From positions 43,802 to 107,801 of IMG/VR virus record IMGVR_UViG_3300046777_001606: a DNA stretch of 64,000 nucleotides. The stretch is one strand, 5' to 3'. Shown piece by piece: positions 30,891-60,774 of this stretch. Made by a program: the position numbers and the translations under genes. The notes under the pieces were generated by a model. It made no database searches, was not told the origin of the DNA, and saw only the letters and a program-made list of their open reading frames with translations. Numbering within the stretch: the stretch's first letter is position 1; each line of letters starts with the position of its first letter. The DNA is from a virus.

Positions 30891-31205
30891 ATGAAATCCT
30901 TTCAACAATTCATGTCCGAGTCAGTTAATATTTCTGGCGACTTTAATGGAAATCTTTATATAAATTCTCCTCAAGAACCACAGCAAGTTGGCGAAGAATA
31001 TGTTGCTGATGTAATGTGGAATGGGAGTCTTTATAGACTAGAATTAGTAACAAAGTCTGGAATTCCTACAAAAAAAGATTTGGGAGAACAATTGCAATCA
31101 GATTATCCTGGTGCAGTAGTACACCAGATTTATCCAGTTACAGAAAAAAATTTTAATATCAAAAACGCACAAAGATATCACCCATCAAAATTAGATTGGA
31201 TTTAA
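30891..31205 (+). CDS. Candidate internal head protein with capsid-targeting N-terminus
   Basis: This 104-residue protein starts one base after the preceding stop. Its first ten residues, MKSFQQFMSE, closely resemble the T4 internal-protein capsid-targeting sequence MKTYQEFIAE, which the gp21 protease removes after the Glu. The remainder (ADVMWNGSLYRLELV ... IPTKKDLGEQLQSDYPGAVV) shares a W-x-G-x-x-Y ... P ... Y-P-x-A-x-V pattern with the C-terminal part of the upstream gene. Packaging in the head and ejection with DNA is inferred from the N-terminus, not proven. The predicted cleavage site has Met at P3 instead of the usual Leu/Ile. Confidence 0.65.
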   Translation: MKSFQQFMSESVNISGDFNGNLYINSPQEPQQVGEEYVADVMWNGSLYRLELVTKSGIPTKKDLGEQLQSDYPGAVVHQIYPVTEKNFNIKNAQRYHPSKLDWI

Positions 31206-39313: not shown

Positions 39314-39880
39314 ATGGCTCATAGACCAGTTGGAGCAGGGATTTCTCTATCAACCACAGCAACTGCAGCAGCAACTACTTCTTTTACTGTCCAATCGGAT
39401 GTTTTAAGAGTTGCTGCTGTTACGGCAGGTGCATTTGTAGCTATTGGAACTAATCCAACAGCCACTACTACAGATTATTATGTTCCAGCAGGAACAACAG
39501 CAACTTTAGCATTATCTAAAGGATCAAACAGGGTTGTTGGTATTACTACTGGTACAACTACTATTGTTGATTTTCCAGAAGGAACTCAATGTCCTTTTGG
39601 TGTTGGTGAATTTGTTACTTTATCTACTGGCTCTGCAACACAGTCATATCATAATATTACACATGCTGCAGTTCAATCAGTTGATACAACATCAGGTGTA
39701 AATGGATATCATCAAACTCGTTGCACTCTAAACCATAATAGTAGTGGTGTTGTTACTGCATTTAATGCGGGATTATCTCCAGATGCTGTTTTGAGAACGT
39801 CTCTAAGATTATCAGCCAGAACAGAAGGTGGATCTGGCGTTGTTTATGTTCAACAAGTTCAAATTAGCGGTCAAGCGTAA
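39314..39880 (+). CDS. Small virion structural protein between gp67 and gp21
   Basis: This is a 188-residue protein rich in Thr, Ala, Val and Ser, with predicted strands throughout (TTSFTVQSDVLRVAAVTAGA, NRVVGITTGTTTIVDFP, TSLRLSARTEGGSGVVYVQQ). The composition resembles head-decoration or fibre-type beta proteins. It occupies the place of T4 gp68 but does not look like that core protein. Its own late promoter and location within the head operon suggest an abundant head-associated protein; this is inference. One base separates its stop from the gp21 ATG. Confidence 0.7.
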   Translation: MAHRPVGAGISLSTTATAAATTSFTVQSDVLRVAAVTAGAFVAIGTNPTATTTDYYVPAGTTATLALSKGSNRVVGITTGTTTIVDFPEGTQCPFGVGEFVTLSTGSATQSYHNITHAAVQSVDTTSGVNGYHQTRCTLNHNSSGVVTAFNAGLSPDAVLRTSLRLSARTEGGSGVVYVQQVQISGQA

Positions 39881-39881
39881 A

Positions 39882-40532
39882 ATGAAACTAATCACAGAAG
39901 AAATCGAATCAGTAGAATTTATTGTCGAAGAAAACGACGGTAAAAAATCTTTGTATATTGAGGGAATTTTTCTTCAAGGCGATATTAAAAATCGCAATGG
40001 TAGAATGTATCCTATGGAAACTCTCCGCCGCGAGGTTGCCAGATATACTGAGAATCACATTTCTGCAGGCAGAGCACTTGGAGAACTTGGACACCCTGAT
40101 GGTCCAACTGTAAATTTAGATAGAGTATCTCACAAAATTGTTTCCTTAAAAGAAAGTGGATCAAACTTTGTAGGCAAAGCAAAAATTTTGAATACTCCAA
40201 TGGGAAAAATTGCGTCTTCTTTAATTGAAGAAGGTGTAAAGCTTGGTGTTTCTTCTCGTGGTATTGGATCCCTTACAATAAGTCGTGAAGGAGTCAATGT
40301 TGTTGGTAACGACTTTATGCTAGCAACTGCTGCTGATATTGTAGCAGATCCTTCAGCCCCTGATGCTTTTGTTGAAGGAATTATGGAAGGTAAAGAGTGG
40401 GTTTGGGACGGTGGAATACTTAGAGAAAAGTTTGCACAAAAAACATATAAGAGAATTAATACTTTAGTTGATCAAAAAAGACTTGAAGAGCAGAAATTAA
40501 ATCTATTTAATGATTTTCTTTCAAATTTATAA
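39882..40532 (+). CDS. gp21: Prohead core scaffold and protease gp21
   Basis: gp21 is the maturation protease that cleaves the scaffold, the capsid protein and internal proteins after a [LI]xE motif. I chose ATG 39882 (MKLITEEIESVEFIVEE), giving 216 residues (T4: 212); an upstream in-frame ATG would run back into the preceding gene. The family motifs are present: IEGIFLQGDIKNRNGRMYPM near residue 28, RALGELGHPDGPTVNLDRVS with the catalytic His near residue 71, and KLGVSSRGIGSL with the nucleophile Ser near residue 123. It sits between portal and scaffold genes as in T4. Confidence 0.94.
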   Translation: MKLITEEIESVEFIVEENDGKKSLYIEGIFLQGDIKNRNGRMYPMETLRREVARYTENHISAGRALGELGHPDGPTVNLDRVSHKIVSLKESGSNFVGKAKILNTPMGKIASSLIEEGVKLGVSSRGIGSLTISREGVNVVGNDFMLATAADIVADPSAPDAFVEGIMEGKEWVWDGGILREKFAQKTYKRINTLVDQKRLEEQKLNLFNDFLSNL

Positions 40533-40580: not shown

Positions 40581-41723
40581 ATGTCTCGTGGAGATTTACA
40601 AGAAATGGAAGTAGGCACTAAGCAATCCAAAACTGCCGTAAACGCAAATGCTAAGGCTGCAGAATCTGCACCTTCTTTAAGTGGTGCAACCCCAGGACAA
40701 ACTGGTAGTTGGGAAGATCTTGGTGGACCTGATCCTTCAAACTACAAGTCAACCGACGATTCAGCAAAGCTGAAGACTCCTGGCGCAACACTTAAGCAAG
40801 TTAAAGATATTGTGAATAAGGGTGCAAAACCTGCAATGGCTGCTGCGGGAGTTAAGGAAGAGAATGAAGAAGATGATGAACTCTTAGAGGAAACTGAAGA
40901 GAAAGAAGAAGAAATCTTAGAAGCTAAGAAAGAGGAAGAGAAAGAAGAAAAAGAAAAAGACGAAGACGAAGAAGAGGACGAAGAAGAGGAAGTGAAGGAA
41001 GAGTATAGCATCGATGAAGATGTTAACGCTCTTATTGGTAATGAAGATCTTTCAGAAGAGTTTAAAGAAAAGGCAAAGACCATTTTTGAAGCTGCTCTGA
41101 AGTCAAAGGTTAATGAAGTAAAAGAAGCTCTAGAGGCTCAATACGAGCAACAACTTCTTGAAGAAGTTGAATCAATTAAAGAAGAAATTAAGGATCGTTT
41201 AGATTCTTATCTTGAGTATGTTGCAGAAGAGTGGTTTACAGAAAACGCTCTTGCAATTGAGCACGGTCTTAAGACTGAAATGACCGAATCATTCCTCCAA
41301 GGAATGAAAGGTCTTTTTGAAGAACATTATGTATCAATCCCTGAAGATAAATATGATGTACTTGATAGCATGGTACAAAAACTTGATGAAATGGAAGAAA
41401 AACTCAACGAGCAGATTGAGAAAAACATTTCACTCAACAAGCGTCTCGCAGAGTCGGTTGCTGATGGAATTCTAGATCAAGTTTCTGAGGGTCTTGCGGC
41501 TACTCAGAAAGAAAAGCTCGCTTCACTTGCCGAAAGTGTTGAGTTTGAAAGTGAAGAAGAATATCGTGAAAAACTGGAGATGCTGAAGGAATCATATTTC
41601 CCAGCAGGTAAGTCTCCATCCGCTAAAACCGAAAGTCTTTCGGAGCAAGTAGACAGTTCACCAGAATCTATGACTGGTACAATGGCTGCCTACCTGAAGA
41701 CTCTTTCAGCATTTAGCAAATAA
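40581..41723 (+). CDS. gp22: Prohead scaffold protein gp22
   Basis: gp22 is the major scaffold protein of the prohead core and is degraded by gp21. The 380-residue protein (T4: 269) is very acidic and helical. A Glu/Asp/Lys-rich stretch lies at about residues 92-145 (EEEKEEKEKDEDEEEDEEEE), followed by long heptad-like helices (KAKTIFEAALKSKVNEVKEA, ESIKEEIKDRLDSYLEYVAE). The C-terminal ESMTGTMAAYLKTLSAFSK resembles the conserved end of cyanophage gp22, where the scaffold contacts the shell. It lies between gp21 and gp23. Codon use shifts toward more C/G-ending codons than in the tail genes. Confidence 0.92.
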   Translation: MSRGDLQEMEVGTKQSKTAVNANAKAAESAPSLSGATPGQTGSWEDLGGPDPSNYKSTDDSAKLKTPGATLKQVKDIVNKGAKPAMAAAGVKEENEEDDELLEETEEKEEEILEAKKEEEKEEKEKDEDEEEDEEEEVKEEYSIDEDVNALIGNEDLSEEFKEKAKTIFEAALKSKVNEVKEALEAQYEQQLLEEVESIKEEIKDRLDSYLEYVAEEWFTENALAIEHGLKTEMTESFLQGMKGLFEEHYVSIPEDKYDVLDSMVQKLDEMEEKLNEQIEKNISLNKRLAESVADGILDQVSEGLAATQKEKLASLAESVEFESEEEYREKLEMLKESYFPAGKSPSAKTESLSEQVDSSPESMTGTMAAYLKTLSAFSK

Positions 41724-43259: not shown

Positions 43260-43266
43260 CTAAATA
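43260..43266 (+). promoter_or_regulatory. Late promoter CTAAATA immediately after the gp23 terminator
   Basis: ATCTAAATAATT begins 3 bases after the terminator T-run. It is only 9 bases upstream of the ATG at 43276, so a transcript from it would be leaderless or nearly so. Confidence 0.5.
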
Positions 43267-46231: not shown

Positions 46232-46729
46232 ATGATAACCACAGCAGTTATGACCAAAAGAAAAAGGTCAGAGCATTACGTCAATAATAAGGAATTTCTA
46301 GCAGCTCTAATTAAGTATCGTGAAGATATTGAAATTGCACAAATTCAAGGAAAACCGAAACCACGCATTACAAATTACTTGGGAGAGTGTTTTTTAAAGA
46401 TTGCTACTCATTTATCCTTTAAACCAAATTTTGTAAATTATATGTTTAAGGATGATATGATTTGTGATGGAATTGAAAACTGCGTTCAGTATATTCATAA
46501 CTTTGATCCACAAAAATCCCAAAATCCCTTTGCTTACTTTACTCAAATTATTCACTACGCTTTTCTGAGAAGAATACAAAAGGAAAAGAAACAGTTGGAG
46601 ATCAAAAATAAAATTCTTGAAAAATCTGGATACGATCAAGTGTTTGATGATAACAATACTGTTGACGGATCAAATTATAGCGATTATAATAGCATCAAGG
46701 ATGCTGTACACTCTAAACTTCGCTATTGA
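46232..46729 (+). CDS. gp55: Late sigma factor gp55
   Basis: gp55 is a minimal sigma factor that directs host RNA polymerase to TATAAATA-type late promoters, with gp33 and the gp45 clamp as activators in T4. The 165-residue protein (T4: 185) has RITNYLGECFLKIATHLSFK near residue 51, CVQYIHNFDPQKSQNPFAYF near residue 85 and TQIIHYAFLRRIQKEKKQLE near residue 107, corresponding to the sigma region 2-like segment that binds the -10. A second ATG at 46250 (MTKRKRSEHY) is an alternative start. The stop overlaps the gp47 start by one base. Its targets appear many times in this window. Confidence 0.93.
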   Translation: MITTAVMTKRKRSEHYVNNKEFLAALIKYREDIEIAQIQGKPKPRITNYLGECFLKIATHLSFKPNFVNYMFKDDMICDGIENCVQYIHNFDPQKSQNPFAYFTQIIHYAFLRRIQKEKKQLEIKNKILEKSGYDQVFDDNNTVDGSNYSDYNSIKDAVHSKLRY

Positions 46730-59906: not shown

Positions 59907-59911
59907 TATTT

Positions 59912-59931
59912 GAGACCTTTCGTGCGGTCTC
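59912..59931 (+). other. RNA hairpin (GAGACC/GGTCTC)
   Basis: GAGACC (59912-59917) pairs perfectly with GGTCTC (59926-59931) around TTTCGTGC. It has no T-run, so it is not a standard terminator; it may stabilise RNA or act with the next hairpin. Confidence 0.55.
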
Positions 59932-59955
59932 TACAAAAGTCGGAACACCCTAAAA

Positions 59956-59987
59956 AGAGGTTCGGTTTTTACCGTTCCTCTCTTTTT
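59956..59987 (+). terminator. Rho-independent terminator before hsp20
   Basis: AGAGG-TT-CGGT pairs with ACCG-TT-CCTCT around a TTTT loop (two U-U mismatches), followed by a C and TTTTT. A TTAAATA late-like motif follows at 59998-60004, upstream of hsp20. Confidence 0.75.
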
Positions 59988-60062
59988 CGTTTTATGGTTA
60001 AATAATAATGGATGCCGAAAGGGTCCACAAAACACAAACTCGCTTTAAAAGGAGCTACTAAA

Positions 60063-60497
60063 ATGACTAATCTTACACGTTATACTGCTGCGGATCTTCC
60101 TACTCTAATGGATAAGATCACACGCAATAGCATTGGACTTGATGAATATTTTGATCGTTTATTCACGATTCACGAAACAACTTCTAATTATCCACCATAC
60201 AACTTGGTTCAAGTTAGTAATGTAGAGTCAAGACTGGAACTAGCACTTGCTGGATTTAAGAAAAAAGAAGTTTTTGTTTATACTCAAGATGGTAAACTCT
60301 TTATCGAAGGTCAAAAAGAAGATAAGGAGACAGACACTAGGTATGTTCACAAAGGTCTGGCTCAACGGTCATTTACACGTTCCTGGACGCTCTCTGATGA
60401 TACGGAAGTTCGATCAGTTGATTTTGAGGATGGGCTTTTGACAGTTACTCTTGGTAGAATTGTTCCTGATCATCATAAGAGGAAAGATTATCTCTAA
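60063..60497 (+). CDS. hsp20: Small heat-shock protein Hsp20
   Basis: This is a chaperone of the alpha-crystallin type, common in T4-like cyanophages and absent from T4. From ATG 60063 it has 144 residues; a strong AAAAGGAG ribosome-binding site lies just upstream and supports this start over ATG 60012. The alpha-crystallin domain spans about residues 40-135 (NYPPYNLVQVSNVESRLELA, GFKKKEVFVYTQDGKLFIEG, VHKGLAQRSFTRSWTLSDDT, VDFEDGLLTVTLG), including the family's conserved GLLTVTL strand. A C-terminal I-x-I motif is not evident. A TTAAATA motif and terminator lie upstream. Its stop codon lies in a late promoter for the next gene. Confidence 0.92.
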   Translation: MTNLTRYTAADLPTLMDKITRNSIGLDEYFDRLFTIHETTSNYPPYNLVQVSNVESRLELALAGFKKKEVFVYTQDGKLFIEGQKEDKETDTRYVHKGLAQRSFTRSWTLSDDTEVRSVDFEDGLLTVTLGRIVPDHHKRKDYL

Positions 60498-60500
60498 ATA
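60494..60500 (+). promoter_or_regulatory. Late promoter CTAAATA over the hsp20 stop codon
   Basis: TCTCTAAATAAAAATAAAA contains the hsp20 TAA stop (60495-60497) and lies 10 bases before the ATG at 60510. It is an exact CTAAATA match next to a gene with a structural-type N-terminus. Confidence 0.6.
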
Positions 60501-60509
60501 AAAATAAAA

Positions 60510-60677
60510 ATGAAATCTTTCCGCCAGTTTTTTAATGAAGTAAAAACGATTGCATATCCTGCAGCAAAACCACATAAAGTTTATCGTAAGGGAAAAGTGA
60601 CTAATGTTGGTTCTGGTAGGGCAGTCCCAATTAATCCTGGAAGTGGTGCTGGTGATGGGGGAGGTGACGGAGAATAA
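60510..60677 (+). CDS. Candidate internal head peptide with capsid-targeting N-terminus
   Basis: This 55-residue protein begins MKSFRQFFNEVKTIA, almost the same as the N-terminus of the protein at 30891 (MKSFQQFMSES) and close to the T4 internal-protein capsid-targeting sequence MKTYQEFIAE. A basic middle (AKPHKVYRKGKVTNVGSGRA) follows and then a Gly/Asp-rich tail (GSGAGDGGGDGE). If gp21 cuts after the Glu, a basic 45-residue peptide would remain in the head. It is driven by a late promoter although its neighbours are early genes. It has no recognised homologue in T4 beyond the targeting segment. Confidence 0.6.
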   Translation: MKSFRQFFNEVKTIAYPAAKPHKVYRKGKVTNVGSGRAVPINPGSGAGDGGGDGE

Positions 60678-60700
60678 ATACTTGCGAATATCGTCGGCGC

Positions 60701-60743
60701 GAGGAGTACCTGGCAAAATCCAGGTTGACTCCTCCATTTTTTT
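60701..60743 (+). terminator. Rho-independent terminator before the PW-motif genes
   Basis: GAGGAGT-A-CCTGG (60701-60713) pairs with CCAGG-TTG-ACTCCTC (60720-60734) around CAAAAT, followed by CA and seven T residues. It has 12 paired bases with one asymmetric bulge. Confidence 0.9.
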
Positions 60744-60753
60744 GTAGTATATT
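60725..60753 (+). promoter_or_regulatory. Sigma-70 promoter overlapping the terminator
   Basis: TTGACT (60725-60730), a 17-base spacer and TATATT (60748-60753) match a consensus promoter. The -35 is part of the right arm of the terminator stem. It serves the two PW-motif genes and gp43. Confidence 0.72.
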
Positions 60754-60774
60754 TGGTAGAGGTATGTAAAATTT

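Follow-up and report, generated by a model that had tools for sequence, protein, structure and literature searches.

What is encoded in the short interval between hsp20 and the genes leading up to gp43 in a T4-like cyanophage? The stretch of DNA analysed here, called the window, comprises 64 kb out of an IMG/VR record 107.8 kb long, and a sequence-only reading of it had noted a 55-residue ORF, basic in its core and ending in a Gly/Asp tail, that separates hsp20 from the gp43 leader genes. Coordinates and PHROGs assignments of the neighbours confirmed this location, with two short genes (phrog_431 and phrog_483) following on the 3' side of the ORF, and then a gp43-type DNA polymerase. Judging from its sequence, the product of the ORF that occupies this slot is probably a T4-type internal head protein, small and basic, which would be made late, packaged, and leave with the DNA. 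The ORF, its parts and its upstream neighbour are the following:

60060-60497, + strand: hsp20, a small heat-shock protein gene (phrog_432, E 2.7e-57), the upstream neighbour, with its stop TAA at 60495-60497
60510-60677, + strand: slot ORF, ATG start, 55 aa (MKSFRQFFNEVKTIAYPAAKPHKVYRKGKVTNVGSGRAVPINPGSGAGDGGGDGE), basic, with a capsid-targeting-like N-terminus and a Gly/Asp tail
60510-60539, + strand: leader MKSFRQFFNE (codons 1-10), in register with MKTYQEFIAE of T4; cleavage may follow E10
60540-60629, + strand: basic core (codons 11-40), net charge approximately +7; residues 22-33 modelled, with low confidence, as a beta hairpin
60630-60674, + strand: acidic, Gly/Asp-rich tail (codons 41-55), lowest model confidence, probably disordered

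The computed charges, approximately +7 for the core (pI 10.0) and approximately -3 for the tail, agree with the composition that had been described. Structure prediction from the subfamily alignment was of low confidence (pLDDT 59, pTM 0.22) and yielded a mostly unstructured model. The peptide had no match in PHROGs or Pfam, and a tblastn search of the named phage collection returned nothing, probably because the sequence is short and of low complexity. We note that an antisense ORF of 107 aa (window 60414-60737, - strand) overlaps the peptide gene.

The slot ORF is a real gene under purifying selection. We compared 89 hsp20 loci (80 from IMG/VR, eight from named phages, and the window itself); in 30 of them the hsp20 stop is followed after 12-45 nt by an ORF that begins with MK[ST]F (MKTL in one case). 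dN/dS was 0.13 in the subfamily of the window and 0.19, 0.10, 0.17 and 0.09 in four others; the value of 0.36 in a sixth subfamily comes from a single diverged pair. A recognised ORF was present in 124 of the 127 loci returned by two further searches, for which family members served as queries. The sequence-only reading had proposed looking for the ORF between hsp20 and gp43 in other cyanophages, and there it proved to be conserved, in 30 of the 89 loci and, directly behind hsp20, in 112 of the 124 independently found family members; a missing conservation of the ORF, which that reading had named as a refuting outcome, was not what we observed. All 112 hsp20-adjacent members carry [AC]TAAATA no more than 45 nt from their start.

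The first ten residues are the part of the peptide that can be compared to T4. Packaging of T4 IPIII needs only its first 10 residues, of which residues 4 and 7 serve targeting and residues 8 and 10 processing, and gp21 cleaves after L/I-x-E (PMC9026906). IPII and IPIII both begin with MKTYQEFIAE, as translated from the T4 genome (NC_000866). In 73 of 75 distinct family members, F or Y occupies both position 4 and position 7, F4 and F7 being the pair in the window copy. The [LI]xE signal stands at residues 8-10 in 44/75 members; the window copy carries FNE at this place, a weaker match than L/I-x-E, and the MKSFDEFKTIAY subfamily has no cleavage site. Since the family was gathered by searches that in part favoured MK[ST]F..F-type starts, the stronger point is that residues 4 and 7 stay fixed while the cores vary. 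The capsid-targeting-like start suggested by the earlier reading thus finds its support in the sequences, and capsid targeting of the slot peptide is, on these grounds, a well-supported prediction. Our searches of an open-access library found no description of capsid targeting sequences in cyanophages.

The start pattern was also counted across the genome of S-SRM01, where it occurs 10 times in the forward and 0 times in the reverse direction, compared to a single occurrence in each direction for the reversed pattern; one of the ten carriers resembles a membrane protein. The link between such starts and a late motif of their own is modest in this genome (6/11, Fisher p 0.017). In cyanophage S-SM1, the protein SSM1_190 (T4-GC190) begins with MKKFSAFLNEA, similar to the start of the slot peptide, and T4-GC190 was detected in purified S-SM1 virions (PMC3037559). 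The experimental evidence is limited to this detection, which was made on a protein other than the slot peptide. Most relatives of T4-GC190 carry TAAATA 25-30 nt upstream; it differs from the slot peptide in being cytidylyltransferase-like, approximately 390-440 aa long and a cyanophage core gene located outside the slot. The proteins gp20, gp21, gp22 and gp23 are all encoded in the window, as is gp55, and the features that bear on targeting are:

39828-40532, + strand: gp21-type head maturation protease (phrog_207, E 4.5e-84), the expected leader-cutting enzyme
40581-41723, + strand: gp22-type head scaffold (phrog_237, E 5e-106), the expected docking partner
30891-31205, + strand: protein of 104 aa with the start MKSFQQFMSES, in the head gene cluster, phrog_1742 (unknown function)

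The last of these adjoins a phrog_1645 virion protein, is conserved in relatives, and is another capsid-targeting candidate.

When would the slot ORF be expressed? The sequence-only reading had assigned it a late promoter of its own, CTAAATA over the hsp20 stop, and the motif is indeed placed as described:

60494-60500, + strand: CTAAATA, T4-type late-promoter-like, overlapping the hsp20 stop; predicted transcript start at about 60506
60674-60680, + strand: second motif, ATAAATA, overlapping the stop of the slot ORF itself (60675-60677)
46232-46729, + strand: gp55-type late sigma factor (phrog_234, E 1.3e-70)

Abundance of CTAAATA was rejected as promoter evidence, since the window has only 8 sites of the bare motif where chance would give 18, so that only conservation can support it. 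We derived the consensus [AC]TAAATA from S-SRM01, where TAAATA is most frequent at 25-29 nt ahead of annotated genes. In the zone of 15-45 nt, A or C precedes it in 71/77 cases, compared to 14/80 on the minus strand. Among the genes of this genome that we checked, the motif lies within 60 nt of 9 of 14 head, baseplate and fibre genes, and of 1 of 16 replication-type genes.

At the slot, CTCTAA of the motif region is supplied by the last codon and the stop of hsp20, and the motif stands 15 nt ahead of the slot ATG, as counted from the T of TAAATA. The wobble base of the last hsp20 codon is C or A in 83/83 loci in which ATA comes next and in 0/6 in which it does not (counts that are uncorrected for relatedness). 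This codon is CTC, CTA, TTC or ATC if ATA follows, and CTT or TTG otherwise; CTC and CTA together make up 17% of the Leu codons of the window. Two loci whose stop context lacks the motif (L075, L076) nevertheless have CTAAATA 6 nt downstream, and in a third (L074) the motif is found 20 nt downstream of the hsp20 stop, still ahead of the ORF. The wobble pattern and the relocated motifs argue for selection on the motif as DNA.

The motif is however not restricted to loci with the ORF. [AC]TAAATA is present in all 30 ORF-bearing loci of the 89-locus set, and also in 56 of the 59 loci without the ORF (31 with CTAAATA, 25 with ATAAATA), where it mostly precedes a conserved GAATATCGTCGGCGC box and a terminator. 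The late-type motif stood, by its conservation and the wobble covariation; the notion that it is private to the ORF was rejected. The CTAAATA form is found in all ORF-bearing loci but one, compared to 31/59 ORF-less loci, and there is a suggestive tendency for this form to track ORF presence on the hsp20 tree (sign test median p 0.06). In 29/29 ORF-bearing loci examined, TAAATA also occurs a second time, at the stop of the ORF or immediately after it, so that the ORF is flanked by two copies of the motif. The distance from motif to ATG in slot ORFs is mostly 15-26 nt, shorter than the genome mode of 25-29, and the predicted leader of the slot ORF is approximately 4 nt long, with no Shine-Dalgarno sequence; both speak against the late reading. 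An equally tight spacing is seen in a late gene, the tail-tube-like gene right after the major head protein, whose ATG (43276) is preceded by CTAAATA at 43260-43266, 9 nt upstream. Between hsp20 and the slot ORF we found no terminator, which makes early read-through and co-transcription possible. Taken as a prediction from conserved motifs, late expression of the slot ORF is well supported.

The slot motif shares with the T4-type late promoter (TATAAATA) the TAAATA core and the preference for A or C before it, and the phage encodes gp55; it differs in overlapping a stop codon and in its very short predicted leader. The late motif of S-PM2 is NATAAATA (PMC2984593).

Conservation of the motif and T4 genetics suggest the following course. 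gp55 would start late transcription at CTAAATA, leading to synthesis of the peptide, whose MKSFRQFFNE leader, mainly through F4 and F7, would dock on the gp22 scaffold core in the forming prohead. gp21 would probably cut after E10 to leave approximately 45 residues, basic core and Gly/Asp tail, beside the DNA, and when the next cell is infected, the peptide would be released together with the DNA; as FNE is not L/I-x-E, processing of the window copy may be weak. Related phages exchange alternative peptides in the slot, which is the turnover expected of a host-facing factor.

Indeed, presence of the ORF requires 20 changes on the hsp20 tree, 8 of them forced by well-supported branches, and the middle segments of slot peptides are exchanged among relatives, with variable cores. 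We tentatively consider, as a possibility rather than an expectation, that the hsp20-gp43 stretch is an exchange slot of Synechococcus-type cyanophages for injected, capsid-targeted peptides that act against host defences or bring the cell under phage control, flanked by stop-overlapping late promoters. For comparison, T4 IPI acts against GmrSD. Other contents of the slot were also observed: an HNH-type endonuclease-like ORF in four loci (L052, L054, L065, L070), a small hydrophobic peptide in three (L005, L081, L084), and, in L003 (DSL-LC03), a gene annotated as nucleotidyltransferase with its own CTAAATAAAAATAAAAATG start.

If our reading is correct, it provides a rule (MK[ST]F..F, often with [LI]xE at residues 8-10, in a late unit) that predicts which genes of unknown function are carried in the virion. 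The rule would apply to cyanophages, which are very abundant viruses in oceans and freshwater, and would likewise single out candidates for first-strike factors directed at the defences of cyanobacteria.

The 3' side of the slot holds a composite control element:

60688-60743, + strand: ATATCGTCGGCGC box and intrinsic terminator hairpin, the box being conserved across cyanophages

The hairpin is stable (z -2.9), and its 3' arm holds TTGACT, the -35 element of a sigma70-like promoter for the gp43 leader genes, located 17 nt before TATATT (-10); terminator and promoter are thus merged (window 60688-60760). TAAATA ahead of the ATATCGTCGGCGC box could give a late RNA of approximately 60 nt. A merged terminator and sigma70-like -10 design also precedes hsp20 (59910-60059) and is conserved in approximately 60 relatives. 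TAAATA before hsp20 was considered as a second late promoter and rejected, its position being that of the sigma70 -10 box in most relatives.

Three other explanations of the locus were weighed against that of an internal head protein that leaves with the DNA. The peptide could be targeted to the capsid and serve solely to build the head or pack the DNA, filling the core or acting as a counter-ion to the DNA, and have no function once the next host is infected. The basic core, the acidic Gly tail and the mostly unstructured, low-confidence model would suit such a function, the cleavage site is missing in some subfamilies, whose peptides may then remain with the core, and relatives of the peptide adjoin Dps, a DNA-protection protein. 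The patchy presence on the hsp20 tree (20 changes) and the exchanged middle segments nevertheless fit dispensable, host-facing cargo better, and we regard an assembly-only role as rather unlikely. More doubtful still is a reading in which early transcription runs on from hsp20 into the ORF, whose product would have an intracellular task such as one in replication or together with hsp20, the late-like motif and the MKxFxxF start being incidental. The sigma70-like promoter of hsp20 within the preceding terminator, the lack of a terminator after hsp20, and occurrence of the motif without the ORF all speak for it. Against it stand the conservation of the motif as DNA and its shift in L074, along with the ORF, to a place beyond the hsp20 stop, the Dps operon with a late motif that is the second genomic home of the family, and the aromatic residues at positions 4 and 7, which hardly ever change although the cores vary.

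It is also conceivable, if very improbable, that [AC]TAAATA and the GAATATCGTCGGCGC hairpin form a late small RNA or regulatory unit in which the ORF is an inserted passenger. Motif and hairpin are kept with or without the ORF, the ORF sits between two TAAATA copies, and the hairpin has the stability given above; purifying selection on the protein, however, makes the ORF more than a passenger, and a search of the window against Rfam found no matching family.

Returning to the internal head protein, the slot peptide matches the T4 IPII/IPIII leader at M1, K2, S/T3, aromatic 4, Q/E6, aromatic 7 and E10, and resembles these proteins in being small and basic, with varied cargo behind a common leader. 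The leader is all that is shared, since the mature part has no recognisable similarity; the slot peptide differs further in its 55 aa, its Gly/Asp tail, FNE instead of IAE and its cyanophage origin, and it is known here from sequence alone.

A named relative was found by DNA search in the slot of S-SRM01 (MW015081), which holds MKTFQQFMEKVGDFGNPPLPTKENCYGRTVKYAMAPKKKVCALDTDSGSGGSSGDCGGD (QPX48211.1). This protein is annotated from an internal Met, which hid its targeting-like start; a likely start at 157606, 7 codons upstream, restores MKTFQQFMEK:

MW015081 157606-157785 (L001:2532-2711): QPX48211.1, re-started

QPX48211.1 is like the window ORF in its slot, its CTAAATAAAAATAAAA leader and its Gly/Ser/Asp tail, and differs from it in the core. 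In four further loci (L324, L326, L327, L328; approximately 2070-2680), a relative (MKTFKQFKQIAYSMAKPHKVYNKGKVTNIGAGRAMAKRSSSSAGG...) is coupled by an ATGA overlap to a Dps/ferritin-like gene, and ATAAATA lies approximately 26 nt upstream of that Dps gene. These Dps-coupled relatives with a late motif are evidence, separate from that of the hsp20 site, that the family is expressed late.

A protein of 154 aa on IMG/VR contig G001 (L193:188-649) begins with MKTFQEFIAEA, nearly the T4 sequence. It continues with FYTLHHGT...GPGVY, which is ADP-ribosyltransferase-like, a reading that is weak given the Pfam PARP match (E 0.13). From its sequence, this protein may correspond, in cyanophages, to Alt of T4.
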